DNA from: an uncultured Lachnospiraceae bacterium
GTDB taxonomy: Bacteria; Bacillota; Clostridia; Lachnospirales; Lachnospiraceae
NCBI GenBank assembly: GCA_903789615.1
Contig: CAIFEV010000006.1
Coordinates: 1 to 64,000, forward strand
Direction: 5' to 3'
Length of the DNA: 64,000 nucleotides
Shown here piece after piece: positions 80 to 63,365 of this stretch. The notes below the pieces were generated by a model. It did no database searches. It saw only the letters and a program-made list of their open reading frames with translations, and was not told the DNA's origin. Positions within the stretch are counted from its first letter, which is position 1; the number at the start of each line of letters is the position of its first letter. The position numbers and the translations under genes were made by a program.

Positions 80-1012
80 TTACTTCGCAGCCTGCGCCTG
101 TGCGGCAACCTCAGCGGCAAAATCCTCGTTCTTCTTCTCAAGTCCCTCGCCTGTCTCAAAGCGTACGAACTTCTTCACGGTGATGTTTGCGCCATTGGCC
201 TTTGCAACCGAATCAACATACTGCTTTACGGTCTGCTTGCCATCCTCGGCCTTTACATAGATCTGGTCGAGCAGGCAGATCTCCTTGAGTTCCTTGTTGA
301 GACGGCCCTTGACGATGCCGGCGATAACCTTCTCCGGAGCATTCGGCTTCTCGTTCTTTGCAGCAGCTGTGAGAACTTCTGTCTCCTTCGCAATATAAGC
401 CGGATCTACTTCCTTGTCATTTGTATATACCGGGCGGAGAGCTGCTGCCTGCATGGCAACATTCTTGCCCATCTCGCGGATCGCGTCATTGATGACATCG
501 GTCTGCACATCTACAAGAACGCAGATCTTGCCGTCCATATGCGTATAGCCGGCAACGAAGCCTTCTGGCTCCTCAACCTGTGCGAAGCGGCGGATTTTGA
601 GGTTCTCGCCGATAACCGCGATCTGGCCCTTCAGAGCCTCTTCAACGGTCTTGTCCGGCTCCGCCTCAGACTTCTCGGCAAGGAATCCTTCAATGTCGGA
701 AGCCGTGGTGTTGAGCGCCTGCTCGGCTACTGTCTTTACATAATTTCTGAACTTCTCGTTCTTTGCGACGAAATCGGTCTCGGAGTTCACTTCAACGACA
801 GCGGCCTTCTTGTCATCGCCTGCGATCATGCAGATACCTTCTGCTGCGATACGGCCGGCCTTCTTGGCAGCCTTGGCCATACCGTTCTCGCGAAGGTACT
901 CAACGGCCTTGTCCATATCGCCGTCAACGGCATTCAGGGCCTTCTTGCAGTCCATCATGCCGGCTCCGGTCATCTCACGTAACTCTTTAACCATCGATGC
1001 GGTAATTTTCAT
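80..1012 (-). CDS. tsf: Elongation factor Ts
   Basis: This protein (310 aa, normal length) is the guanine nucleotide exchange factor that recycles EF-Tu-GDP during translation elongation in the cytoplasm. The N-terminal UBA-like region (VKELREMTGAGMMDCKKAL, residues 8-26) and the EF-Tu contact motif TDFVAKNEKF near residue 80 are both present. The tail is Ala-rich. The ATG at 1012 is preceded by an AGGAGA ribosome site. It follows rpsB by 47 bp on the same strand, the usual bacterial rpsB-tsf operon, and shares the rpsB promoter. No clear terminator is seen before the window edge. Confidence 0.98.
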   Translation of the reverse strand: MKITASMVKELREMTGAGMMDCKKALNAVDGDMDKAVEYLRENGMAKAAKKAGRIAAEGICMIAGDDKKAAVVEVNSETDFVAKNEKFRNYVKTVAEQALNTTASDIEGFLAEKSEAEPDKTVEEALKGQIAVIGENLKIRRFAQVEEPEGFVAGYTHMDGKICVLVDVQTDVINDAIREMGKNVAMQAAALRPVYTNDKEVDPAYIAKETEVLTAAAKNEKPNAPEKVIAGIVKGRLNKELKEICLLDQIYVKAEDGKQTVKQYVDSVAKANGANITVKKFVRFETGEGLEKKNEDFAAEVAAQAQAAK

Positions 1013-51462: not shown

Positions 51463-53064
51463 TCAGCTAAAAAGCCCTCCTTCTTCAGCTTCCGGATTTC
51501 TCACAATATATGTCCCGCCCGTTATGGACGCGGTCATACGGTCATCATAGAAGAACCACACGCGGCTGTGAGCAGCGTCAAATTCCCACGCATTGAACCG
51601 GAACTTGTCCTTTCCGCCCGTGATGTCACACTTCTCGCAGTTCTTGAGCCGCCATTCCAGAACGTCTGTCAGGAAGCACGCACCGAACTGCGGAACAGCC
51701 AGCAGAATCTTTGCCGATGTTCTGTCATTGTGTTTCCGCACGCGATGCAGCGTCAGGTTCAGGACCTTTCCCGAATCCTTGCGGCCCACCCTGATCTCAC
51801 ATGCATATCCGTCTTTAAGCGCCTCGTGCAGTCCGAGCGGATAGGAGCACTTTAGGCGCTTCCTGGCGAAATCCTTCTCGGCAAATGCGCCCGATTTGAT
51901 CAGAATATCTTTTGACTCCGACAGCGCATTCACAATCTTTGCCTGAACCGAATCATCGCCGTAGTGGGCGCCGTTTTCCACGCGCAGACGGATGGCCAGA
52001 TCCGCCATCAGGAAGTGACGGTACGCCTCGAGAACATCGGTCTTCACGCCGATCCCGCGAAGATAGCAGTTCCCCTTTCTTCTGGCGGCGTCGGCAAACG
52101 GGCAGTCCGTGTCGCCCTTTGTGAACTGCTCAAAGGTTGTCTCGTACGCCCGGTCATTCAGCCGGAACGCCGTGTCGTCATTTACCGCTACGCCGTTGCC
52201 CTTGTGAAAGCAGTCGGCGAGCTTGTATTCCGCCTCCATGTCGCCGCCCGCGGCAGCAATCGTGAAGTAATAAAACGCCTTCTGATAATCCGGCTTTCCG
52301 TCCGAAATCCGGCCATAGTAATAGATATATCCGAGCATATCGGCGGCCCTGTTGTTCCCGGGCTGAAGCTGTGTCAGGCGCTCAAGGTCTTCCGCAGCCA
52401 GGTTCCAGTCGCACGGGAATATGTCATTTCCGCCATAGCTGCCGGACGCCTCTGCCTCCAGGGCATCCGGTACATTCTTTTTCGCGAGTTCGCGGGCAAA
52501 GCGGGCAAAGAGCTTTTTTCCTGTCTCGTCCAGGTGCTTCCTCTCCTGCGCACTGCTGCAGCTTCGGATGAACTGCAGCTTGATGCTGTCCGGGTATTCC
52601 CGCTCCAGCGCTGTTTTTTCCGCATTGGCCTTGTACATTGCGATCAGGTTCTGCAGGGAACGGATATCCGCCTGACTCGCGACCGTTCTGCTCTCGTCCT
52701 CGCATTCAACCCACATGTTGTCTAGACGCTCCAGGATAATCTCAACGACTCTGTCCTCCGTGTCCGGAAGCGCTGCCTTGTCCGGGTTCCCGGTCGTATA
52801 CACGGTGTAATCGGTGGAATCATGAAAAAGCTCTCTCAGCGGCTTTGCCCAGCCGTTCTCAAATGCATCGACCGTCATGCCTCCGGCAGCCAGATTGGCA
52901 AGCAGTGCCTCCACGTCTCTGAGCGTGAAGTTGTAACCGTCCTCCACAACGATTCTGTCCGGCTTTCTTTTGGTTCCGATAATCTGTGACAGCGGCTTCT
53001 CGAGCCTCACAAACTGCCGCATTTCTTCCTGGGTGATCGTCTGCGCATTTGACTTTCTGGCCAT
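51463..53064 (-). CDS. Sel1-repeat (TPR-like) protein of unknown function
   Basis: This 533-aa soluble protein has an N-terminal half with no recognised domain (residues 1 to about 225, starting with a basic/polar segment then RPDRIVV-like beta strands). Sel1-type repeats follow at about 235-355 (AADMLGYIYYYGRISDGKPD, KLADCFHKGNGVAV, GNCYLRGIGVKTD). A C-terminal part with FGACFLTDVLEWRL and a Cys pair is also unrecognised. Sel1 repeats mediate protein contacts. The ATG at 53064 follows AGGGGA, and the ATG 21 nt upstream has none. It lies 23 bp upstream of the oxidoreductase start. Confidence 0.7.
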   Translation of the reverse strand: MARKSNAQTITQEEMRQFVRLEKPLSQIIGTKRKPDRIVVEDGYNFTLRDVEALLANLAAGGMTVDAFENGWAKPLRELFHDSTDYTVYTTGNPDKAALPDTEDRVVEIILERLDNMWVECEDESRTVASQADIRSLQNLIAMYKANAEKTALEREYPDSIKLQFIRSCSSAQERKHLDETGKKLFARFARELAKKNVPDALEAEASGSYGGNDIFPCDWNLAAEDLERLTQLQPGNNRAADMLGYIYYYGRISDGKPDYQKAFYYFTIAAAGGDMEAEYKLADCFHKGNGVAVNDDTAFRLNDRAYETTFEQFTKGDTDCPFADAARRKGNCYLRGIGVKTDVLEAYRHFLMADLAIRLRVENGAHYGDDSVQAKIVNALSESKDILIKSGAFAEKDFARKRLKCSYPLGLHEALKDGYACEIRVGRKDSGKVLNLTLHRVRKHNDRTSAKILLAVPQFGACFLTDVLEWRLKNCEKCDITGGKDKFRFNAWEFDAAHSRVWFFYDDRMTASITGGTYIVRNPEAEEGGLFS

Positions 53065-53210
53065 GGTAAAGTCCCCTTTGTTCAATCCGTCTTCATATTC
53101 TCAAACCAATAATACCACGTTTACTTTGCAACTTGTAGGCAATCTGTTTTCCCAAAACAGCCGCATCCGGTGTATACTGTTGGTAATTTCAAATCGGAGG
53201 TTTACCGCTT

Positions 53211-53630
53211 ATGTTTGATGAAAACTGCGCCTACTGTGCGGAGGGCGAAAAGCTCGCCGCGTTCGGCATCAAGATCTGTGAGATGCCGATGTCCAAGCTC
53301 ATTCTGTTCAAAGAGCAGACCCACAGAGGCCGTGTGATCGTTGCCTGCAAAAAGCACGTCGACGATGTCACCCAGCTCACAAAGGAAGAGCGTGCCCAGT
53401 TCATGGAGGACATTAACCGCGCCGCAGAATGCCTTCACAAGACATTCCACCCGGACAAGATCAACTTCGGAGCATACGGCGACACCATGCACCACCTGCA
53501 TGTCCATCTCGTTCCGAAGTACCGGGACGAAGCCGAGTGGGGGGATGTCTTTGCCATGAATCCGCACAAGGTTGAACTGAGTGATGAAGAATATCAGAAA
53601 CTGATCGAAGAGATCAAAGCCAATCTCTGA
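53211..53630 (+). CDS. HIT family protein (nucleotide hydrolase/transferase)
   Basis: This 139-aa protein has the histidine triad HHLHVHLV (residues 94-101) and a CAYC pair at 6-9, as in HinT-like phosphoramidases. The substrate is probably an adenosine phosphoramidate or dinucleotide. GGAGG precedes the ATG, and a TATACT lies about 40 nt upstream without a strong -35. It is a single-gene unit between divergent and convergent neighbours. Confidence 0.93.
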   Translation: MFDENCAYCAEGEKLAAFGIKICEMPMSKLILFKEQTHRGRVIVACKKHVDDVTQLTKEERAQFMEDINRAAECLHKTFHPDKINFGAYGDTMHHLHVHLVPKYRDEAEWGDVFAMNPHKVELSDEEYQKLIEEIKANL

Positions 53631-53686
53631 AATCCGGGTGAATCCGGCCCCGGGAACGCTGTGCATACTCCTGCGGGGCAGAAATA

Positions 53687-53727
53687 ACCGCCGAAGTCAG
53701 AACAAGTCTGATTCCGGCGGTCTTTTT
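53687..53727. terminator. Bidirectional terminator between HIT and alcohol dehydrogenase genes
   Basis: ACCGCCG (53687-53693) pairs with CGGCGGT (53715-53721), with a nested TCAGA/TCTGA stem. CTTTTTAG follows on the plus strand and TATTTCTG on the minus strand. Confidence 0.85.
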
Positions 53728-53730
53728 AGT

Positions 53731-54921
53731 TTATTTCCATGAATCCTCGTAGATTTCAATGCACTCATCTCTTGTGAGCGGCACCGGGTCGAACTTCAGA
53801 AGTCTCTGGGTCGTCGCGATGGCGTTGTCCGCCATCTTCGCCGCATCTTCCTTTCGGATCCCGTAGTCGGACATCTTCAAATCATCCACGCCGCACGCCT
53901 TTTGAAGGGACAGAAGCGCTTCCAGGAAATCCTCCGCCCTTTTGGCATCCGTCTTTCCCAGATACCCTGCCATGTTAACAAATGTCTCATCCGCGCAGTG
54001 CAGACTGACAAAATGCCGGTAATACGCCATGGAGATCATGATAAGACCCGCACCGTGCGGAAGCGCCGGGTAATACGCGCTCATGGCGTGCTCGAGCGCA
54101 TGCTCGCCGATGCAGGAACTGCTGATCATGGCATAGCCCCCGAGCATGCTGGCAAAGCTCATGCCGGTCCTGGCTTCCATATCGCTCCCGTCTCTGACAG
54201 CTCTCGCCAGATACTTCCCGACGTTCTCAATTGCAGTCCGGGTCACCATGCCGCTGAACGCACAGGCGTTCACCGACAGGTGGCACTCCAGGCTGTGAAA
54301 CAGAGCGTCAAATCCCTGATAGGCCGTGAAGCGGGGCGGCACGGACGCGGTGAGCTGTGGGTCAACCACGGCGATCCTTGCAAAGAGGCTGTCCATGCGG
54401 CCGAGGCCGATCTTTTCATTGGTCAGCGGATTCGTGACGACGCCGTTGGCATCCACCTCCGATCCGGTTCCGGCCGTGGTCGGAATCGCGATCCACGGCA
54501 GCGGCTCCTTCTCCGGCTGCCGGTTCAAGCCTGTCATTCCGCCGGCATAGTCCCACAGATCATCAGACGGCTGCGGCGCAAACATTGCCATGATCTTGCC
54601 GGCGTCAAGCACCGAACCTCCGCCGAGCGCGACCACAAAATCGCAGCCCTGCTCTCTGGCCAGATTTGCTCCCGCTTCCACCGTGGATTTCACCGGGTTT
54701 GCCTCAACCTTGTTATAGAGCACATATTTCACGCCGGCTGCCGAAAGTTCCTTTTCGGTCCGGTCAAGATACCCATTTTCAATCACCGAACGGCCGCCGC
54801 TTGTCACCAGCAGTGCCTTCTTTCCCGGCATCTTCTGCCTGTGCAGGTCACTGAGCACGCCGCTCCCGAACAGCACGTGGGTCGGCTCAAAAAATGTAAA
54901 AGCTTCACGCATGAGCGCCAT
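53731..54921 (-). CDS. Iron-containing alcohol dehydrogenase (group III)
   Basis: This 396-aa NAD(P)-dependent enzyme reduces aldehydes to alcohols or the reverse. The nucleotide site is ALGGGSVLDAGK. PTTAGTGSEVDANGV follows. Metal ligands are the Asp and His of FDALFHSLECHLS and the two His in GEHALEHAMSAYYPALPHGAGL. The N-terminus FTFFEPTHVLFGSG is like butanol-dehydrogenase-type enzymes. It lies 23 bp downstream of the GH28 gene, so it may act on a product of that sugar pathway, but the substrate is not known. Confidence 0.9.
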   Translation of the reverse strand: MALMREAFTFFEPTHVLFGSGVLSDLHRQKMPGKKALLVTSGGRSVIENGYLDRTEKELSAAGVKYVLYNKVEANPVKSTVEAGANLAREQGCDFVVALGGGSVLDAGKIMAMFAPQPSDDLWDYAGGMTGLNRQPEKEPLPWIAIPTTAGTGSEVDANGVVTNPLTNEKIGLGRMDSLFARIAVVDPQLTASVPPRFTAYQGFDALFHSLECHLSVNACAFSGMVTRTAIENVGKYLARAVRDGSDMEARTGMSFASMLGGYAMISSSCIGEHALEHAMSAYYPALPHGAGLIMISMAYYRHFVSLHCADETFVNMAGYLGKTDAKRAEDFLEALLSLQKACGVDDLKMSDYGIRKEDAAKMADNAIATTQRLLKFDPVPLTRDECIEIYEDSWK

Positions 54922-54944
54922 CTCCTCCCCATCTGAAAGTGTTC

Positions 54945-56249
54945 TTACTCGTCAATTCTCTCTCTGCTGCAGAACTCCTTCATACTCCCGTCAATCTCAA
55001 GCTGCCCGTCCAGCGTGAAATTCTGCACATTCCGGGTGTACAAAACCGATATCTCATGGCGGTACACGCCCCTTGCCGACGGCATCTCGTCAAACACATC
55101 CGGGACGTGACTGCTCTGGCGCTTCAGTCTCAGAATCACATCCGAGAGATGAACATCCCGCACCGGCGAGTTTTCTTCTCCTGCGATGATAGACGTCCCC
55201 TCGCCGTCCATGTACAGATGGTCCACAAATATGCGGCTGATCTTTCCGGGAATGCGCTCAACGCCGCTGCGTCCTGTGGCGGAAATAAAAAGCGGGTCGC
55301 CCTTGCCCCACCACACGTGCACACCGGTGTCCCGCGTGGTGCAGTCTGCGTAACGCCTGGCATTTCCGGTTACGTGGTGGATCAGAATGTCATGAATCTT
55401 TCCTCCGTCGCGGCTGAAGATTCCAAAGCCTCTCGTGCAGTCCGAGAGCACGCAGTCCGAAAGGATAATGTGATGGATATCGCCCCACGTCTCCGTACCG
55501 ATTTTCAATGCGCAGGAGCGCGAGCGCATTGTGCAGCCGCTGATCACGATGTTCTCCGAGGCACCGTATTTTTTTGTCATCGGCGCCGTCGTCTTCACGA
55601 CAATACAGTCATCGCCCGTCCGGATGATGCACCCGCGGATCACGACATTGCTGCAGCAGTCCGGATCAATGCCGTCATTGTTGGCGCCCCGCTCGTTGTT
55701 CAGGATCCGGATGTTCTCGATCAGTACGTCCTGACAGCCGGCCAGATGAAGCGTCCAGTACGCCGAGTCCTCAAACGTCACGTCCCGCACCGTCAGCTTC
55801 CGGACATCCTCGAGAAAACTCATCCTCGGGCGGAATCCCTTTACTGCCAGCGGGCACTCATGAAGGCCGCCGTCCGCGTTATCGTCCCAGAATGCAAGTC
55901 TTCCCTGTCCGTCAATCGTGCCGTTTCCGGAAATTGTGATGTCCTCCTCGTGCCGGGCAAACAGAAATACGCCGCCTTCCCAGCCGGTGTCCGCGTTATC
56001 GTCCTCAAAATCTTTCATGAAGTCGATGACGTCGGAAGGATCAAGACTGGAGACGAGTCTCGCACCCGTATCCAGGTGCAGTTCAATGTGCGAGCGCAGC
56101 CGGAGGGAGCCGGAAAGAAAGGTGCCGGCCGGAATATTGACCGTTCCGCCTCCGGCTTTTGCCACCGTGTCGATCGTCTGCTGAATGGCCGCGGTGGCTT
56201 TTGTCCTGCCGTCACCCACCGCACCGAATTCCGTGATATCCCGAATCAT
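54945..56249 (-). CDS. GH28 glycoside hydrolase (polygalacturonase-like), cytoplasmic
   Basis: This 434-aa right-handed beta-helix enzyme has the GH28 active site. NNDGIDPD (190-197, with D192 and D195) is followed by TGDDC (211-215, D213-D214). The usual GHG motif is not plain; SRSCALKIGTETWG lies in its place. It starts MIRDITEFGAVGDGRTK and has no signal peptide, so it acts inside the cell on imported oligogalacturonate or a related sugar. It lies 18 bp after the AAA+ gene and 23 bp before the alcohol dehydrogenase. Confidence 0.85.
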   Translation of the reverse strand: MIRDITEFGAVGDGRTKATAAIQQTIDTVAKAGGGTVNIPAGTFLSGSLRLRSHIELHLDTGARLVSSLDPSDVIDFMKDFEDDNADTGWEGGVFLFARHEEDITISGNGTIDGQGRLAFWDDNADGGLHECPLAVKGFRPRMSFLEDVRKLTVRDVTFEDSAYWTLHLAGCQDVLIENIRILNNERGANNDGIDPDCCSNVVIRGCIIRTGDDCIVVKTTAPMTKKYGASENIVISGCTMRSRSCALKIGTETWGDIHHIILSDCVLSDCTRGFGIFSRDGGKIHDILIHHVTGNARRYADCTTRDTGVHVWWGKGDPLFISATGRSGVERIPGKISRIFVDHLYMDGEGTSIIAGEENSPVRDVHLSDVILRLKRQSSHVPDVFDEMPSARGVYRHEISVLYTRNVQNFTLDGQLEIDGSMKEFCSRERIDE

Positions 56250-56267
56250 ATGCTTCTTATCCTGCCT

Positions 56268-57788
56268 TTACTTAAGGATCTGTCTGACCTCATCGGCGCC
56301 GTAGCGCACGAATAATTTCCCGTTCTCTTCGATCTCCAGCAGCGCATGCGCCGCCAGATGCTCGGCTGCCTGTTCCAGGTCCCGCACGCCCGGCAGACCG
56401 ATATAATGGTCCACAACCGCCGCGGCGCCGTCATCACTCACCACGCATTCCTCCGGATGCATTCCCATCCGGCGCAGCACTTTCGGCAGAGAGAAGCGCT
56501 GAAAGATAATCTTCTTCTCCTCCGGCGAATAATCCGGGATGTCGATCACGGCAAAACGCGTCATCAGCGGATCGCTGATGCGGCTGCGGTCATTGGCCGT
56601 CGCGATCGGGTATACGCCGGTCGTCGGCACCGTGCACTCCATGTAGTTGTCGGTAAATCCCAGGTTGTCAAGAAGCGTCAGGAGCGCGTCCGCCGGATTG
56701 CCGTGCGAGCTCTTCGAGTCCGCCTTGTCCAGCTCATTGATGATAAAGACAAGATTGCTCTCGCCTGCCTGATAAAATGCCTCCATGATGGATCCCGGCT
56801 TTGCGTTTGAATACACTCTCGAACTCCCGGTGAGCTGCTCCGCGTCATGGATGGAACTCATGTCCAGGCTCGTCCACGGAAGCTGCAGAATCCGCGCCAC
56901 CGCATATGCGATCTGTGATTTACCGGTGCCGGCAGGGCCGACCAGAAGCAGTCCGTACGCCGGAAGCGTATGCGTCCGGTTAATCTGGATGATCGTCTCA
57001 ATGACTCTCTGCTTCACGTTTTCAAGACCAAACAGTTCTTCGTCAAGGATCTGTCTGGCACGCTTCGGATCAATCGAGCCAAAGTAGGAATCCTTCCAGC
57101 GGATATTGAGCATGATCGAGAGTGCCCGCAGGGCATGCCGCCTCTCGTCCGGTCCCACTTCCCGGGAGCGGGCGACCGCCAGATTGCGCTTTGCCCATTT
57201 CCGGATGTTGACCGGCAGTGTCTCGCCGGCGCAGGTGAGGTAGTCCGAGATCGTCTGCAGACTCGTCAGCTTCATCTCGTCGCTGTCTTCCTCTTCGATG
57301 TCCGAATCCGCCGCTTCGCGCACCGGAGGCTTGCTCTCCAGAAGCCTGCGGATCACATACTGCAGAAATCCGTCCTCGGCCGAGAGCTTCGCGACGCCGC
57401 CGGAATCCACCTCACGGATCTTGTAGACTGCATACCCCTCCGGTGTGGACTGTCCCGTCAGCCGGACCAGAATCTGACTGCTGCCCAGCCACGCGATGAG
57501 CCTTGTGAACCGGGAATCCACTTTCAGGATATCCTCTGTCCTGCGGGTGTCCGGCCGGCCATACCCGAACGCCGTGCCTTTCTTCGGATCTGTGAACAGC
57601 CCCGTCACATGGTGTTCCAGTTCTCCGCCGCGCTGAGCGATCACAAGCATCGGGTGCGCGCTGTCACAGGCCGGATTGTCCGCATCAAATTCCGTGTAAG
57701 TCACTTTCGCAGCGATTTCTTCCTGTCTTTTCTTTTCCTGTTCAGCCGGCACCCCGCCATTGCTGAAATCAAAAATACGATCTGCCAT
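56268..57788 (-). CDS. Lon-like AAA+ ATPase lacking a protease domain
   Basis: This 506-aa protein has an unrecognised N-terminal half (1 to about 235, with an acidic linker near 160-172) and a C-terminal AAA+ domain like that of Lon. FGLENVKQRVIETIIQI (253-269) is followed by Walker A GPAGTGKS (284-291). The Walker B region is LVFIINELDK (346-355), with Asn where most have Asp. Sensor 1 is IATAND (395-400) and a likely arginine finger is in DPLMTRF. No Ser-Lys protease domain follows. Its client is unknown. It lies 18 bp upstream of the GH28 gene and 24 bp after flavodoxin on the same strand. Confidence 0.75.
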   Translation of the reverse strand: MADRIFDFSNGGVPAEQEKKRQEEIAAKVTYTEFDADNPACDSAHPMLVIAQRGGELEHHVTGLFTDPKKGTAFGYGRPDTRRTEDILKVDSRFTRLIAWLGSSQILVRLTGQSTPEGYAVYKIREVDSGGVAKLSAEDGFLQYVIRRLLESKPPVREAADSDIEEEDSDEMKLTSLQTISDYLTCAGETLPVNIRKWAKRNLAVARSREVGPDERRHALRALSIMLNIRWKDSYFGSIDPKRARQILDEELFGLENVKQRVIETIIQINRTHTLPAYGLLLVGPAGTGKSQIAYAVARILQLPWTSLDMSSIHDAEQLTGSSRVYSNAKPGSIMEAFYQAGESNLVFIINELDKADSKSSHGNPADALLTLLDNLGFTDNYMECTVPTTGVYPIATANDRSRISDPLMTRFAVIDIPDYSPEEKKIIFQRFSLPKVLRRMGMHPEECVVSDDGAAAVVDHYIGLPGVRDLEQAAEHLAAHALLEIEENGKLFVRYGADEVRQILK

Positions 57789-57812
57789 TTTCCCCGGATT
57801 CCAATCTGTAAA

Positions 57813-58283
57813 TTACTGTGCCAGCCATTTTCTGATAGCATCGTCGGTTGTTGCTGCCGTTATCCTGAGGCCCTCGCCGATCTTCGCCTCCGGATACAGC
57901 CTGCGCAGTTCCTCCGTGCTCTGCTTCACGCCGGCACCGCCGGACGTGGCAAATGGCAGAATCGTGTGACCGGAAATGTCGAAACTGTCAAGAAATGTGT
58001 CGATAATCCTCGGGGCCTTTCCCCACCAGATCGGATATCCTACGATAATCGTGCCGTATCCGTCGACATATGGCAGTTTTCCTTTGATCGCCGGCCGGCA
58101 TCCCTCGTCCTCCATCTCGATGTTGCAGCGGGCCTCGGAAGCTGTCCAGTCCAGATCTTCTCTGGTGTACGCATCCTCAGGCTCGATCCGGAAGTCCTCC
58201 GCGCCAAGAATTCCCGCGATTCTCTTCCCGGCCTTCTCTGTATTGCCGTCAACGCTGAAATATACTACAAGTGCTGGTTTCAT
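57813..58283 (-). CDS. Flavodoxin family protein
   Basis: This 156-aa FMN-binding electron carrier or quinone/flavin reductase has the phosphate loop YFSVDGNTEKAGKRI (8-22) and GYPIWWGKAPRIIDTFLDS. The flavodoxin-4 pattern ATSGGAGV appears later. The ATG at 58283 follows AAGGAA. A longer frame upstream overlaps the iol terminator and is rejected. It is followed by the AAA+ gene, 24 bp away. Confidence 0.9.
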   Translation of the reverse strand: MKPALVVYFSVDGNTEKAGKRIAGILGAEDFRIEPEDAYTREDLDWTASEARCNIEMEDEGCRPAIKGKLPYVDGYGTIIVGYPIWWGKAPRIIDTFLDSFDISGHTILPFATSGGAGVKQSTEELRRLYPEAKIGEGLRITAATTDDAIRKWLAQ

Positions 58284-58385
58284 ATAGCTTCCTTTCCTGC
58301 ATAATGCACTTTTCATTGTTGTACTGCCTGTATTATACGGCAAAGCAGGCGGAAATAACAGTTTGCCGGAAGCGGCCCATGCCTG

Positions 58386-58421
58386 CAAAAAAAGAACCGC
58401 ACCAATTACGGCACGGTTCTT
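58386..58421 (-). terminator. Inositol operon terminator
   Basis: AAGAACCG (58392-58399) and CGGTTCTT (58414-58421) form the stem around a small inner pair, with five T following on the minus strand. It lies about 30 bp after the aldolase stop and closes the iol operon. Confidence 0.88.
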
Positions 58422-58450
58422 TTCACCGGGATCTTCCGGGTCCTGTTCCA

Positions 58451-59302
58451 TTACATCTTCGGAACCTTTCCGCAGTTAAACACGCGGATGTGGTGCTTTA
58501 CGTTTTCGTATACGCCCTGTACTTCCGCCTCGCTCAGGTCAAAGTAATTGTGCGCTCCTTCGCTCTTCAGATACTTTTCCGCAGACGCGGTCAGGTGATT
58601 AAAACTTGCCGTCGCAATGTTGACCTTGCGGATGCCGCACCCGATCGCTCTCTGAAAGTCCGCATCGCTGATGCCGCTGCCGCCGTGAAGGACGAGCGGA
58701 AGACTGCCGGTTCTCTTATGGATTTCCTCCAGCACGTCAAATGCCAAGTGCGGAGCTGTAGGATAGTTTCCGTGCGCATTGCCGATGGCGACGGCAAGGC
58801 AGTCAATTCCTGTCTCCTGCACAAAACGCTGTGCGGCCGCAGGATCCGTGTAGCGGATCTCATGCTCCTCGCCGCCTTCTGCGCCGCCGACCAGACCGAG
58901 CTCTGCCTCTACCGTCGCACCGTACTTTGCCGCGCGTCTGACAACTTCCTTTGTGCGCTCGATATTCTCCTCAAACGGATAGGTCGAGCTGTCAAACATC
59001 ACGGACGTAAATCCGTAATCGAGCGCCTCCTGAACAACCTCCATCGTGAGGCCGTGGTCCAGGTTCAGCGCCACGTCAACCTTTGCCGATTTGGCCGCGG
59101 AGACCATCATCGGTCCCATGAGCCGGAACGGGGATGCTGCCATGCGCTTCTCGGCAATCTGCATGATCACCGGCGTATTCATCTCCTCCGCCGCCCGGAT
59201 CACACCCATGACCATTTCCATGTTGCCGACATTAAATGCACCTACGCCTCTGTCCTGCGCCTGTGCATCCAGCATCAGCTTTTTCATTGTGACAAGTGCC
59301 AT
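58451..59302 (-). CDS. iolJ: Class II aldolase, probably 6-phospho-5-dehydro-2-deoxy-D-gluconate aldolase
   Basis: This 283-aa zinc aldolase is of the fructose-bisphosphate aldolase class II family. Metal and substrate ligands lie in LNLDHGL, VEAELGLVGG, AIGNAHG and LHGGSGI, with the catalytic Asp in DHG. In the iol operon its expected reaction is splitting 2-deoxy-5-keto-gluconate-6-phosphate into malonate semialdehyde and DHAP. Fructose-bisphosphate or tagatose-bisphosphate aldolase is not excluded from sequence alone. It is the last gene, before the terminator. Confidence 0.85.
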   Translation of the reverse strand: MALVTMKKLMLDAQAQDRGVGAFNVGNMEMVMGVIRAAEEMNTPVIMQIAEKRMAASPFRLMGPMMVSAAKSAKVDVALNLDHGLTMEVVQEALDYGFTSVMFDSSTYPFEENIERTKEVVRRAAKYGATVEAELGLVGGAEGGEEHEIRYTDPAAAQRFVQETGIDCLAVAIGNAHGNYPTAPHLAFDVLEEIHKRTGSLPLVLHGGSGISDADFQRAIGCGIRKVNIATASFNHLTASAEKYLKSEGAHNYFDLSEAEVQGVYENVKHHIRVFNCGKVPKM

Positions 59303-59314
59303 GTGTGCTCCTTA

Positions 59315-60469
59315 TCAGGCCCAGAGATTGCGGTACATCTGCTCGATGTCTTCCTTCGTGATATCACGCATTGTGTTCTGCGGAGAACCAGAATCCAGCG
59401 CATCCGAAGCCATCTTCGGAATCTGTGCGAAGAACTCGTCGCGGTTCACGCCGTACTGCTCGAGTGTCGGTGTATTCAGCTCATCAACAATGCCGCAGAC
59501 AGCTGCCAGGAACTTCTCAGAAGCCGTCTTGTCATCATCCTCTGCTGACGCCACGCCGATTGTGCGTCCCAGGATGGCAAATCTGTCATACGCGCCCGGA
59601 AGAGCAAACTTGAAGCACTCCTTCAGAAGCATTGCGTTGCTGAGGCCATGTGCTATGTGGAAGATTGCGCCGATCGGACGGCTCATGCCGTGGATCAGGG
59701 TAACGGATGAGTTGTTGAAGCTGATGCCGGCTTCCAGAGCTGCGATAGACATCTGAACTCTGGCCTCTTCATCCTTGCCATTCTTGTAAGCCTTCGGCAG
59801 ATATGCGAAAATTCTCTTCACAGCAGACAGGGCAAATGTATCCGAAAGCGGCTGTGCCTTTCTGGATGTGAAAGCTTCTGTGCAGTGGCACAGAGCATCC
59901 AGTCCGGTGTGAGCGGTAACACCTGCCGGTGCCGTCATTGTGAACTGCGGATCGATGATGGCCAGGGTGGACATCAGGCAGGCACCTTTGAGCAGCATCT
60001 TGACCTGCTTCTGTGTATTGTTGATGATCGTGAACTGTGTCGCCTCAGAACCGGTTCCGGCTGTCGTCGGGATCGCTACAAGCGGCGGCATCTTTACATC
60101 GATGACCTTGCCCATGTAATCGTCGATGCTTCCGCCATTTTCCACAAGGGATCCGATCGCCTTCATGGAGTCCATCGGGCTGCCGCCGCCGAGGCCGATC
60201 AGGAAATCGCACTTCTCTGCCTTGTACTTCTCAAGGCCTGCCGCAATCATGGTGTCAGTCGGCTCGCCGGTGATATCCGAATAAATCGCGTAGTCAACCC
60301 CCTCGTCCTTCAGAGCTGCCTCAACCTTGCCGCAGTTGCCGAGCTTGACCATCATCGGGTCCGTTACGATCAGAGCTTTCCTGCCGAAGCCCGGAAACTT
60401 TGCCTTTGCAAGGTCCAGAGCACCGCTGCCGTTGATAATCTGTCCAGGTACAATAAATTCTCTTGCCAT
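59315..60469 (-). CDS. Iron-containing alcohol dehydrogenase in the inositol operon
   Basis: This 384-aa group III Fe-alcohol dehydrogenase has LGGGSPMDSMKAIG, PTTAGTGSEATQFT, and the ligand segments GLDALCHCTEAF and HGMSRPIGAIFHIAHGLSNA. The position between iolB and the aldolase suggests that it reduces malonate semialdehyde to 3-hydroxypropionate, or reduces acetaldehyde, to regenerate NAD in anaerobic growth. That assignment is inference. It differs clearly from the dehydrogenase at 53731-54921. Confidence 0.87.
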   Translation of the reverse strand: MAREFIVPGQIINGSGALDLAKAKFPGFGRKALIVTDPMMVKLGNCGKVEAALKDEGVDYAIYSDITGEPTDTMIAAGLEKYKAEKCDFLIGLGGGSPMDSMKAIGSLVENGGSIDDYMGKVIDVKMPPLVAIPTTAGTGSEATQFTIINNTQKQVKMLLKGACLMSTLAIIDPQFTMTAPAGVTAHTGLDALCHCTEAFTSRKAQPLSDTFALSAVKRIFAYLPKAYKNGKDEEARVQMSIAALEAGISFNNSSVTLIHGMSRPIGAIFHIAHGLSNAMLLKECFKFALPGAYDRFAILGRTIGVASAEDDDKTASEKFLAAVCGIVDELNTPTLEQYGVNRDEFFAQIPKMASDALDSGSPQNTMRDITKEDIEQMYRNLWA

Positions 60470-60502
60470 TGTCTGTCTCCTCTGTGGTTAAGCCACACGT
60501 CT

Positions 60503-61291
60503 TCAGTCAAACTTCGCGTCATTCATCCAGAGATACCGGTCGTCCTCAAAGCGGCTCGTCTGCAGCCACGGATTGTCCGGAAGATGACGGATCATCCAGC
60601 AGGTGTACATCTGGAAACCCGGCGCCGCCGACTGCGGATGAAGCTGCCCGCCCGGGATCGCCGAAAAGCTGTTGTCAACGCTCTTGAAGACCTGATCGCC
60701 TACGAAGCTTGCGCCGAATCCTTCCGGACGGTCAAACTTGAAATAATAGCACTCCGGCTGCGGATGTCTGTGCGGCAGATATCCCGACCAGTTGCCGCGG
60801 TCATTGAGCACCTCGCCGAGAACCATGTTGCTCTCCGGGCAGATGTCCTTGTCAAAGATCGTGTTCACGCGGCGCTTCGCTGTGTTGCCGTACTTGCCGA
60901 CAGCCGACCACTTCCACGGAGCATCCTCCGGCTTGTAAAGCTTTGCGGCAAACTTCGTGTCATTCTTCGTGCGCTGTACAAGAATCTGAGAATCCGCCAG
61001 TGCTTTCACGGCAAATGCACTTCCCGTCGCAACATGCAGTGCCCACGGGCCTTCGGTGAATACATCCTTGCGGGATGCTTCCTGCGTCGTCCCGTCCCAG
61101 GAAAACTCTACTCTTCCGGAAAGAAGCAGCGCAGCCGCTTCCTCGCCGTCAGTCGTGAAATTTCTTGTCTCTCCGGACTTCATGCGATAGACACGGATGT
61201 CCATCATCATGTCCGAATAGTCATTCGTATATGTTGTGAGAATTTCCTCACCATTCGCATCAAACTGCGGATAGCCGAATACCTTGCTCAT
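60503..61291 (-). CDS. iolB: 5-deoxy-glucuronate isomerase
   Basis: IolB (262 aa) converts 5-deoxy-glucuronate to 5-dehydro-2-deoxygluconate in myo-inositol catabolism. It is a two-cupin protein. The family motif VLNDRGNWSGYLPHRHPQPE, with its metal-binding His residues, lies near the middle. YYFKFDRPEGF and HPQSAAPGFQMYTCWM follow. Length is typical. iolD precedes it by 142 bp, the largest gap in the operon. Confidence 0.96.
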   Translation of the reverse strand: MSKVFGYPQFDANGEEILTTYTNDYSDMMMDIRVYRMKSGETRNFTTDGEEAAALLLSGRVEFSWDGTTQEASRKDVFTEGPWALHVATGSAFAVKALADSQILVQRTKNDTKFAAKLYKPEDAPWKWSAVGKYGNTAKRRVNTIFDKDICPESNMVLGEVLNDRGNWSGYLPHRHPQPECYYFKFDRPEGFGASFVGDQVFKSVDNSFSAIPGGQLHPQSAAPGFQMYTCWMIRHLPDNPWLQTSRFEDDRYLWMNDAKFD

Positions 61292-61369
61292 ACGAAAATA
61301 TCCTTTCTTTCTTCACATTCCGGCGCTGCCGCGCCTGCATGCTCAGATCTGTTGTCGTGCCTGGAGCCC

Positions 61370-61402
61370 GGCCAGATTGGCCTGCAAGCAGTCCATCTGG
61401 CC
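61370..61402 (-). other. Hairpin in the iolD-iolB gap
   Basis: GGCCAGAT (61370-61377) pairs with ATCTGGCC (61395-61402) with a 17-nt loop. No T-run follows, so it is not an ordinary terminator. It may be an RNA processing or stability element between iolD and iolB. Confidence 0.4.
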
Positions 61403-61433
61403 GTCTGCTCCGGCACTGGACTTATCACATCCA

Positions 61434-63365
61434 TCAATACTTTCTTGCCTGGTCGCGATGTTCTTTGACGTCTTCTGCGGCTTCGCGGACACTTTCTTTT
61501 TCCGATGTCATTGCGATTCCGACGTTCCACCATGCATCATACCCGTCGGTCATGGTCTTCGGGATGATTTTCAGGTCAAACAGGCACGCAACGGTCTGTT
61601 TCTTGGAATCTTCAAGGGCATCTCTCAGCTCTTTCACGCTGCGGCAGGTGTAGGTCTTCATGCCGTATGCCTGGCCGATCAGTGCATAGTTGGTTCTCAC
61701 GAGATCGCCGTCCGGCTTCTTGCCTGTGAAGTAGCGGAACTCTGTTGCAAGAGAGCCGACGCCGTGCGTCATCTCCAGATTGTTGATGCAGCCGAAACCG
61801 CAGTTATCAAATACCAGGATGTTGGTCTTGACCTGATCCTGCATGATCGCGCCCAGCTCGGAGTTGAGCATCTGGAAGCCGGAGTCGCCGATCACGGTGT
61901 ACTCTTCATGATCCGGATCCGCCAGCTTTACGCCCAGCGAAGCGCCGATCTCATACCCCATGCAGGAATAAGCGTACTCAACATGATAGCCGCCTCTTCT
62001 GTCCGTTCTCCACAGACGCTGCATGTCGCTCGGAAGCGAACCGCCGGCCGTGATCATCGTGGCATCCTTGTCGATCACCTGATTCAGCGTTGCGATCGCA
62101 GCGGTCTGCGTCAGGGTCGTGTCGAACTTCTTGACAAATTCCGGAATCGTCCGCGGATCTCTCGGCTTGATTTCCGGCTCGAAGTCATCGCCCGTGTAAA
62201 CGATCGAAGCGAGACGGTCATATTCCTTGTCCCAGTCTGCTCTTGCCTTGGCAATTGCATCGCCCCACTGTGAATCATAGCTCTTTGCGCGCAGATTCTC
62301 AGCGAGCTTTTCAACCGTTGCCTTTGCGTCGCCGACAGCCTTTGTCGCATCATACTTATAGGCATGATAGCGGCTGTAGTTGATCGTCACGAACTTCACG
62401 TCCGGATTGCGGAACAGCCACTTGGAACTTGTCGTGAAATCAGAAAGACGGGATCCGACAGCAATGATACAGTCAGCCTTCTGTGCAAGGCGGTTTGATG
62501 CAGACGTACCGGTCACACCGATACCGCCCATGTTGTACGGATGGCTGGAGATGCAGGCTGACTTTCCTCCCTGTGTCTCGCCGTACGGAATGTGGAACTC
62601 CTCCGCGAACTTCTCAACCGTCTCACCGGCCTCGGAGAAACGCACGCCGCCGCCGACAATCATCATCGGGTTCTTCGATGCGGCGATAACCTCTGCGATA
62701 TCCTCGACCTCTTCCGGAACAGCAGCCGGACGATTGATACGATGCACTCTCTTGCGGAAGAAATATTCCGGATAGTCATAGCACTCGCCCTCGACATCCT
62801 GCGGAAGCGCGATGCAAACAGCGCCGCAGTCAGCCGGATCGGTGAGCACGCGCATTGCGTTTACAAGAGCCGGCATAACCTGCTCCGGTCTCTGAATGCG
62901 GTCCCAGTACCTGCAGACCGGCTTGAACGCATCATTGGTCGTCACAGCCAGACTGTAGGTCTGCTCCAGCTGCTGCAGAACCGGATCCGGCTGGCGGGAA
63001 GCGAATGTGTCACCCGGGAATACCAGAAGCGGAAGGTTGTTGGCCGTGGCAGTCGCGCAGCCGGTCACCATGTTTGCAGCGCCCGGTCCGATCGACGAGG
63101 AGCACGCGATGATCTTCTTGCGGTTATTCTGCTTGGCAAATGCTGTCGCAGCATGGCACATTCCCTGCTCGTTGCGGCCCTGGAATACCTTGAGCTGCCC
63201 CGGATCCGAGTCCAGTGCCTCACCGAGTCCGAGTGCGATTCCGTGTCCGAAGATTGTAAAAAAGCCTTCGACAAACTTTGTCGTAACACCGTCATAGCTG
63301 ACGTACTGGTTATCAAGAAATTTTACGATCGCCTGCGCCGTCGAGAGATGATATCGTTTTTCCAT
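61434..63365 (-). CDS. iolD: 3D-(3,5/4)-trihydroxycyclohexane-1,2-dione hydrolase
   Basis: IolD (643 aa) opens the inositol-derived ring to 5-deoxy-glucuronate. It is a thiamine diphosphate enzyme of the acetolactate-synthase type. The N-terminal catalytic Glu region is GRNEQGMCHAATAFAKQ. The Mg/ThDP motif GDSGFQMLN with NCGFGCIN occurs near residues 490-530. The ring-opening protein family shares YNMGGIGVTGTSASNRLA. Length is normal. A GGAGA site precedes the ATG. It lies 30 bp after iolC. Confidence 0.96.
   Translation of the reverse strand: MEKRYHLSTAQAIVKFLDNQYVSYDGVTTKFVEGFFTIFGHGIALGLGEALDSDPGQLKVFQGRNEQGMCHAATAFAKQNNRKKIIACSSSIGPGAANMVTGCATATANNLPLLVFPGDTFASRQPDPVLQQLEQTYSLAVTTNDAFKPVCRYWDRIQRPEQVMPALVNAMRVLTDPADCGAVCIALPQDVEGECYDYPEYFFRKRVHRINRPAAVPEEVEDIAEVIAASKNPMMIVGGGVRFSEAGETVEKFAEEFHIPYGETQGGKSACISSHPYNMGGIGVTGTSASNRLAQKADCIIAVGSRLSDFTTSSKWLFRNPDVKFVTINYSRYHAYKYDATKAVGDAKATVEKLAENLRAKSYDSQWGDAIAKARADWDKEYDRLASIVYTGDDFEPEIKPRDPRTIPEFVKKFDTTLTQTAAIATLNQVIDKDATMITAGGSLPSDMQRLWRTDRRGGYHVEYAYSCMGYEIGASLGVKLADPDHEEYTVIGDSGFQMLNSELGAIMQDQVKTNILVFDNCGFGCINNLEMTHGVGSLATEFRYFTGKKPDGDLVRTNYALIGQAYGMKTYTCRSVKELRDALEDSKKQTVACLFDLKIIPKTMTDGYDAWWNVGIAMTSEKESVREAAEDVKEHRDQARKY

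Follow-up and report, generated by a model that had tools for sequence, protein, structure and literature searches.

The gene at 56268-57788 on the minus strand of the window, a 64,000-nucleotide stretch of DNA from an uncultured Lachnospiraceae bacterium (contig CAIFEV010000006.1, positions 1 to 64,000), encodes a protein that is, judged by its sequence, derived from Lon and not a Lon protease. It retains the AAA+ motor of Lon, lacks the protease domain and carries asparagine in place of the Walker-B aspartate. We propose, with a probability of roughly 0.55, that the protein acts as a stand-alone Lon-derived AAA+ ring, which would use ATP to remodel or unfold its clients without degrading them. 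A role as unfoldase, assembly factor or regulator, put forward in the first-pass annotation of this DNA, is plausible on these comparisons.

The open reading frame begins with ATG, codes for 506 amino acids and contains no internal stops. It is composed of the following parts:

56268..57788, minus strand: whole gene, protease-less Lon-type AAA+ protein of 506 amino acids (reading frame and translation; relatives compared)
57765..57788, minus strand: N-terminal motif MADRIFDF, residues 1-8, family form M-P-V-F-D-F, predicted disordered (pLDDT below 50 for residues 1-12)
57321..57710, minus strand: N-terminal domain, residues 27-156, OB-like strand order without clear structural match (AlphaFold2 of the domain alone)
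57264..57320, minus strand: acidic linker, residues 157-175, predicted mostly disordered (pLDDT below 50 for 157-170)
57069..57263, minus strand: Lon-like three-helix bundle, residues ~176-240 (VIA-align; predicted helices 177-190, 193-207 and 213-227)
56529..57068, minus strand: AAA+ alpha/beta subdomain, residues ~241-420 (Pfam AAA, E 7e-15; superposition on 6u5z_A)
56916..56939, minus strand: Walker A GPAGTGKS, residues 284-291, with K290 and S291 (conserved GKS)
56811..56813, minus strand: Y326, aligned with a Lon tyrosine (invariant in the 50-sequence alignment; Tyr in 44 of 44 Lons)
56724..56750, minus strand: Walker B VFIINELDK, residues 347-355 (N351 codon at 56736-56738)
56592..56594, minus strand: N399, sensor 1 (122 of 122 family members; 44 of 44 Lons)
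56556..56558, minus strand: R411, probable arginine finger (122 of 122; 44 of 44)
56271..56528, minus strand: AAA+ lid (alpha subdomain), residues ~421-506, ending at about E. coli Lon residue 580 (VIA-align, 6u5z_A 250..580)
56382..56384, minus strand: R469, probable sensor 2 (122 of 122; 44 of 44)

The roles given for N399, R411 and R469 are those of their counterparts in Lon, and the Lon tyrosine aligned with Y326 is the pore-loop-1 tyrosine.

Relationship to Lon is supported at the level of both sequence and predicted structure. Searched with the whole protein, Pfam recognises an AAA domain above its cut-off (E 7e-15), and among solved structures those closest to it in sequence are Lon proteases (3m6a, E 5.9e-39). 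The NCBIfam model of Lon (TIGR00763) matches residues 191-490 against model positions 267-568 of 795 only, with a score of 177.4 bits, below the NCBIfam cut-off of 608 bits. Because this match stops at model position 568 and the reading frame itself ends at residue 506, the protease part is absent, in agreement with the first reading of the sequence. None of the 142 family members counted has room for a C-terminal Ser-Lys protease domain and two further members examined lack it as well, so that protease-bearing homologues in the clade number 0 of 142 and 0 of 2. In a structure model built from 50 aligned relatives (mean pLDDT 83), residues 176-506 superpose on residues 250-580 of E. coli LonA (6u5z_A; Z 26.0, rmsd 3.3, 327 aligned), which indicates that the three-helix bundle of Lon is kept and that the chain ends where the AAA+ part of Lon ends. 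VIA-align rows mostly begin at residue 175-180 of the protein, matched to Lon residue 244-253 or its mitochondrial equivalent, and all rows with Z of 19.5 or more are bacterial, yeast or human mitochondrial Lon entries, presumably of LonA or LonC type. The N-terminal 235 residues had been regarded as unknown; this still describes residues ~1-156 and the linker, whereas residues ~176-235 match the Lon bundle. Pfam did not list the N-terminal substrate-binding domain of Lon, either with the whole protein at E up to 1 or with residues 1-168 at E up to 5, though a strongly diverged form of this fold may be present.

The source genome (2.45 Mb, 99.6% complete) encodes two Lons on another contig, both above the Lon cut-off and 34% and 32% identical to the 506-residue protein over the matched part. 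At E 1e-30, the Lon profile matches only these two and the gene at 56268-57788 in this genome (13 of 25 candidates scored).

LonA (TIGR00763; 6u5z, 6n2i, 3m6a) and the family protein have the three-helix bundle, AAA+ alpha/beta subdomain and lid in common at 25-30% identity, together with the Walker-A lysine, Walker-B glutamate, sensor 1, R411, R469 and the pore tyrosine. LonA possesses a Ser-Lys protease and the Lon N-terminal domain, whereas the family protein has no protease and no recognisable Lon N-terminal domain. The Walker-B Asp, Walker-A Thr and Arg at 320 of LonA are replaced by Asn, Ser and Thr, and three residues that LonA keeps after D374 are missing; the comparison at 320 and D374 was made with a Lon set filtered on DE[IVL]DK, taken from the same 44 loci as the Lons described below. 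LonB, LonC and LonBA, the last described from Firmicutes, are likewise AAA+ proteins of the Lon family; every Lon contains an ATPase and a protease domain, according to PMC9569914, and the family protein has no protease domain. The literature searched, which takes in only a minor part of the subscription journals, yielded no account of a Lon family devoid of the protease. Proteasomal ATPases of the PAN/Rpt and Mpa/ARC groups are built from an OB domain followed by AAA+. Their domain order would be alike if the N-terminal domain of our protein, a candidate only, is an OB fold; the family protein differs from them in that its best AAA+ sequence match is Lon and in that the Lon three-helix bundle lies between the two domains.

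The asparagine that the first-pass annotation had pointed out in Walker B (IINELDK) proved to be a constant trait of the family. All 142 family sequences counted (122 of a first set and 20 added later; 139 distinct, forming 120 clusters at 90% identity) carry INELDK as well as the Walker-A GKS, and both motifs recur in two further members, namely the last of 59 copies found in the taxonomic family and one from the phylum search. N351 is coded for by AAT in 82 and by AAC in 60 of the 142 sequences; the use of two codons is a sign of purifying selection, by which the residue appears to be held. Walker-B Asp was found in 44 of 44 Lons, a non-random set made up of the two Lons of the source genome, the top scorers of the searches at phylum and class level and three located next to family genes. 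As a DE[IVL]DK filter would force this aspartate, the 44 Lons were picked and compared without any motif filter. A second substitution accompanies the first one: at Walker-A position 291 every one of the 122 members of the first set has Ser, and all 44 Lons have Thr. The remaining residues of the active site, K290, E352, N399, R411 and R469, are identical in all 122 members and in all 44 Lons, and Y326 is invariant in the alignment of 50 sequences. Walker A, sensor 1 and the likely arginine finger, pointed out earlier in the first-pass annotation, are kept throughout these 122 members, as is the Walker-B Glu, and the lid is present. The Walker-B Asn is, on these alignments, neither a private mutation nor the mark of a broken gene. 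In ClpX, the site of the ClpP-docking loop lies between sensor 1 and the arginine finger region. Sensor 1 and R411 are separated by 11 intervening residues in the 506-residue protein, which leaves no room for a docking loop of the ClpX type.

The family is centred on Lachnospiraceae. Carriers account for 56 of 200 sampled genomes of this taxonomic family, with 59 copies of the gene. In the order, 46 of 392 genomes are carriers, all within the same taxonomic family, and in the class 6 of 391, one of them (G523) from another family. A phylum-wide profile search found 3 of 398 genomes at E below 1e-250 in a sample that took in few genomes of the taxonomic family, the next match (8.6e-60) being a Lon. 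The best 80 of 488 relatives come mostly from Lachnospiraceae or from loosely named clostridial and Firmicutes bins. The 142 sequences take in 58 of the 59 copies; beyond them lie the majority of the remaining carriers in the order and the relatives past the best 80 of 488. Median pairwise identity among the 122 members is 75%. In a tree of 30 members, chosen by hand from the 122, and the 44 Lons, the two groups are separated by a branch whose support is 100/100, a rough value given the midpoint root and a bootstrap that had not settled. A long stem (3.9 + 2.8 changes per column, hence saturated) joins the family to Lon, and the branches within the family are short. The family is, as far as this tree can be read, one clade far from Lon.

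At least twelve of the 56 carriers (G009, G044, G066, G074, G083, G086, G139, G153, G154, G187, G190 and G197) have no Lon above the curated cut-off, and eight of these twelve genomes have a completeness of 90% or more and a contamination of 5% or less. There, the family protein needs no Lon as partner or protease. Weak protease-end matches in the twelve genomes belong to open frames of 455-518 codons, which we take to be RadA or ComM. Neither the family gene nor Lon was matched in 20 further genomes of the 200; considered with the twelve Lon-free carriers, Lon itself seems to be patchy in the taxonomic family. One member of the family, WP_075681081.1 of Roseburia sp. 831b, is 62% identical over residues 5-470. 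The protein is constant across many gut bacteria, yet this single annotation calls it only "AAA family ATPase", a name without function.

The N-terminal domain is more difficult to place. Residues 27-156, folded alone by AlphaFold2 with 96 relatives as the first-pass annotation had recommended, gave a confident model (pLDDT 91.2) with the order strand-strand-strand-helix-strand-strand, which by eye fits an OB fold, that is a five-stranded barrel with a helix between strands 3 and 4. Structural matches are weak: the best Foldseek E is 0.29, and the best VIA-align row (Z 4.5, rmsd 3.6, 78 aligned) is within the range of unrelated folds, so the OB fold is a lead and no assignment. The weak VIA-align rows are, as we take them, mostly OB folds, and the matched chains include SSB, PriB, RecG and RPA as well as toxin B subunits, into which nothing was read. 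Pfam returned only DUF6296 (E 0.12) for residues 1-168; for the N-terminal pieces of three relatives it returned only DDHD (0.92) for L115 and no match for L116 and L117. A sequence search of the PDB with the domain, run to E 10, found nothing, and no viral structure matched it at better than E 0.045.

Two subtypes can be distinguished by what precedes this domain. In 127 of 142 members, FDF stands 0-5 residues after a Met, typically as MPVFDF, at or near the start of the protein. Seven members (L115-L119, L121 and L242, the last assigned by eye) have a helical domain of ~65 residues in place of the FDF tail, and the remaining eight show near-forms (e.g. VYDF, VFSF) or a short start. Both subtypes are present together in four genomes (G062, G071, G091 and G1183); the tail in G062 is VFEF. 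The idea that FDF is a tag common to other proteins was rejected: in 40 carrier genomes, the pattern ATGCCNGTNTTYGAYTTY had 39 sites in 36 genomes, of which three fell not in the family gene but in frames of 35, 101 and 51 codons, and a reversed-pattern control gave one match. The helical domain did not serve as a link to a partner either, as a search of 20 genomes matched six family members and all else had E of 0.05 or worse.

Gene neighbourhood was equally silent on partners. The gene follows a Flavodoxin_4 gene and lies 18 bases before a GH28 gene, and Pfam confirmed both of these same-strand neighbours reported earlier; KduI/IolB, a TPP enzyme, a class II aldolase and two Fe-ADH genes are nearby. 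The whole minus-strand run at 51463-63365 consists of the TPP enzyme (IolD-like by reading), KduI/IolB, Fe-ADH, class II aldolase, Flavodoxin_4, the AAA+ gene, GH28, Fe-ADH and a Sel1-repeat protein; it is accompanied by a HIT-domain gene on the opposite strand and looks like a region for myo-inositol or uronate use. A hairpin followed by a T run, terminator-like by eye, is located at ~58380-58430 between the aldolase and flavodoxin genes; with such a terminator upstream, flavodoxin-AAA+-GH28 would be a separate unit. The search for conserved neighbours proposed in the first-pass annotation was carried out with all open reading frames of 80 amino acids or more at 122 loci, and it revealed none. 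Within 400 bases of the gene no family was more frequent than a MATE-type transporter and argininosuccinate synthase (both named by reading of their sequences), found at 6 of 122 loci each with sides or orientation mixed, and the flavodoxin family is adjacent at 3 of 122; neighbours are under-counted here, since some loci are short contigs or have ~1.5 kb of flank. An operon or function by neighbourhood was rejected on these counts, and the flavodoxin and GH28 genes, not being conserved, give no functional information.

A remodelling ring of this kind would probably assemble into a hexamer, as Lon does. Its N-terminal domain and the FDF tail may capture clients or an adaptor, which the pore tyrosine Y326 would then pull, and E352, N399, R411 and R469 would still carry out hydrolysis. 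Asn351 and Ser291 may hold Mg2+ more loosely than Asp and Thr do, so that the motor could be slow or tightly regulated. Favourable to such a ring are the invariant residues K290, E352, N399, R411, R469 and Y326, shared with the 44 Lons, the superposition of residues 176-506 on 6u5z_A, N351 held through two codons, the carriers without Lon, the source genome in which, with 13 of 25 candidates scored, only two Lons match besides the family gene at E 1e-30, and the missing space for a ClpP-docking loop. Against it, several positions fixed in Lon differ, among them Arg to Thr at 320 and the three residues missing after D374, and neither the neighbours nor the N-terminal motif nor the helical N-terminal domain named a client or adaptor. 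PMC6344862 further reports that McrB D279N and D279A fail to oligomerise, and that mutation of the Walker-B Asp in most other AAA+ proteins gives forms that assemble but are hampered in hydrolysis.

The same mutants lend weight to the main rival of the remodelling ring, an ATP-binding switch: a ring that assembles on ATP, hydrolyses it very slowly or not at all, and serves as scaffold, clamp or sensor following ATP/ADP levels. The fixation of N351 in 142 of 142 sequences together with Ser for Thr at 291, both next to Mg2+, and the long stem that separates the family from Lon are also consistent with it. However, a non-hydrolysing protein would be expected to lose some of its catalytic Glu, sensor 1, arginine finger and sensor 2; all are kept, which favours a working ATPase, and on balance we find the switch doubtful. 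A wider picture would embrace both readings as a class of ATP-gated switches or gentle remodellers, which lost the protease, acquired an FDF-tailed, client-capturing front and retuned Mg2+ by Walker-A Ser and Walker-B Asn towards binding over fast hydrolysis, with FDF and helical subtypes that may form mixed rings; taken as a whole, it appears unlikely.

A Lon motor with its pore tyrosine preserved might also be the unfoldase half of a split protease, handing clients over to a separate peptidase such as ClpP, HslV or a free S16 domain. This is improbable, as there is no conserved neighbour and no insertion between sensor 1 and R411, the Lon profile recovers just the two Lons and the family gene in the source genome at E 1e-30 among 13 of 25 candidates scored, and the twelve carriers with nothing at the Lon cut-off offer only weak protease-end matches in the 455-518-codon frames. 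Rings that act on nucleic acids have precedents in MCM or RuvB-like proteins. An OB-like N-terminal domain that binds DNA or RNA would agree with the weak SSB, PriB, RecG and RPA matches; their Z of at most 4.5 is within the range of unrelated folds, though, and the pI of the domain lies mostly on the acidic side (median 5.8, from 4.5 to 9.3, with a median net charge of -3, in 122 members), which disfavours simple nucleic-acid binding. Such a ring is quite improbable. The absent protease domain and the patchy presence of the gene (46 of 392 genomes of the order) might finally be taken for signs of a decaying Lon paralogue without function. The 75% median identity, invariant active-site residues and N351 kept through codon changes already indicate strong purifying selection, and we regard decay as hardly credible.

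The protein would be a naturally occurring case in which the motor of an AAA+ protease lost its protease and came to carry a fixed Walker-B Asn. The same change is made in the laboratory to study and break AAA+ enzymes, as with McrB D279N (PMC6344862). Since it retains the Glu, the family lends itself to a clear-cut test of whether an AAA+ enzyme truly requires the Walker-B Asp.

Other origins and contexts were also considered. A phage or plasmid origin was rejected: of the nine matching phage records not one reached 80% coverage of the query, and out of 73 matching records of a plasmid collection one covers the query, a 243-kb Roseburia replicon. PADLOC gave nine matches, confined to the AAA+ part (best DolB, E 5e-8), and no partner gene was conserved at the 122 loci. 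A link to sporulation was discarded as well, since SpoIVA (TIGR02836, E 1e-30) is as frequent in carriers as in non-carriers (28 of 40 each), the latter being genomes without a family match in the 200-genome search; two of these 56 matches, both in carriers, are below the curated cut-off. The member from another family of the class (L244, G523:C12) is 49% identical over the N-terminal part and may represent a transfer or a misplaced bin. One of the two Lons of the source genome (L003, G000:C4:186171-187067) sits on a long branch (0.79) and departs from most Lons around pore loop 2.
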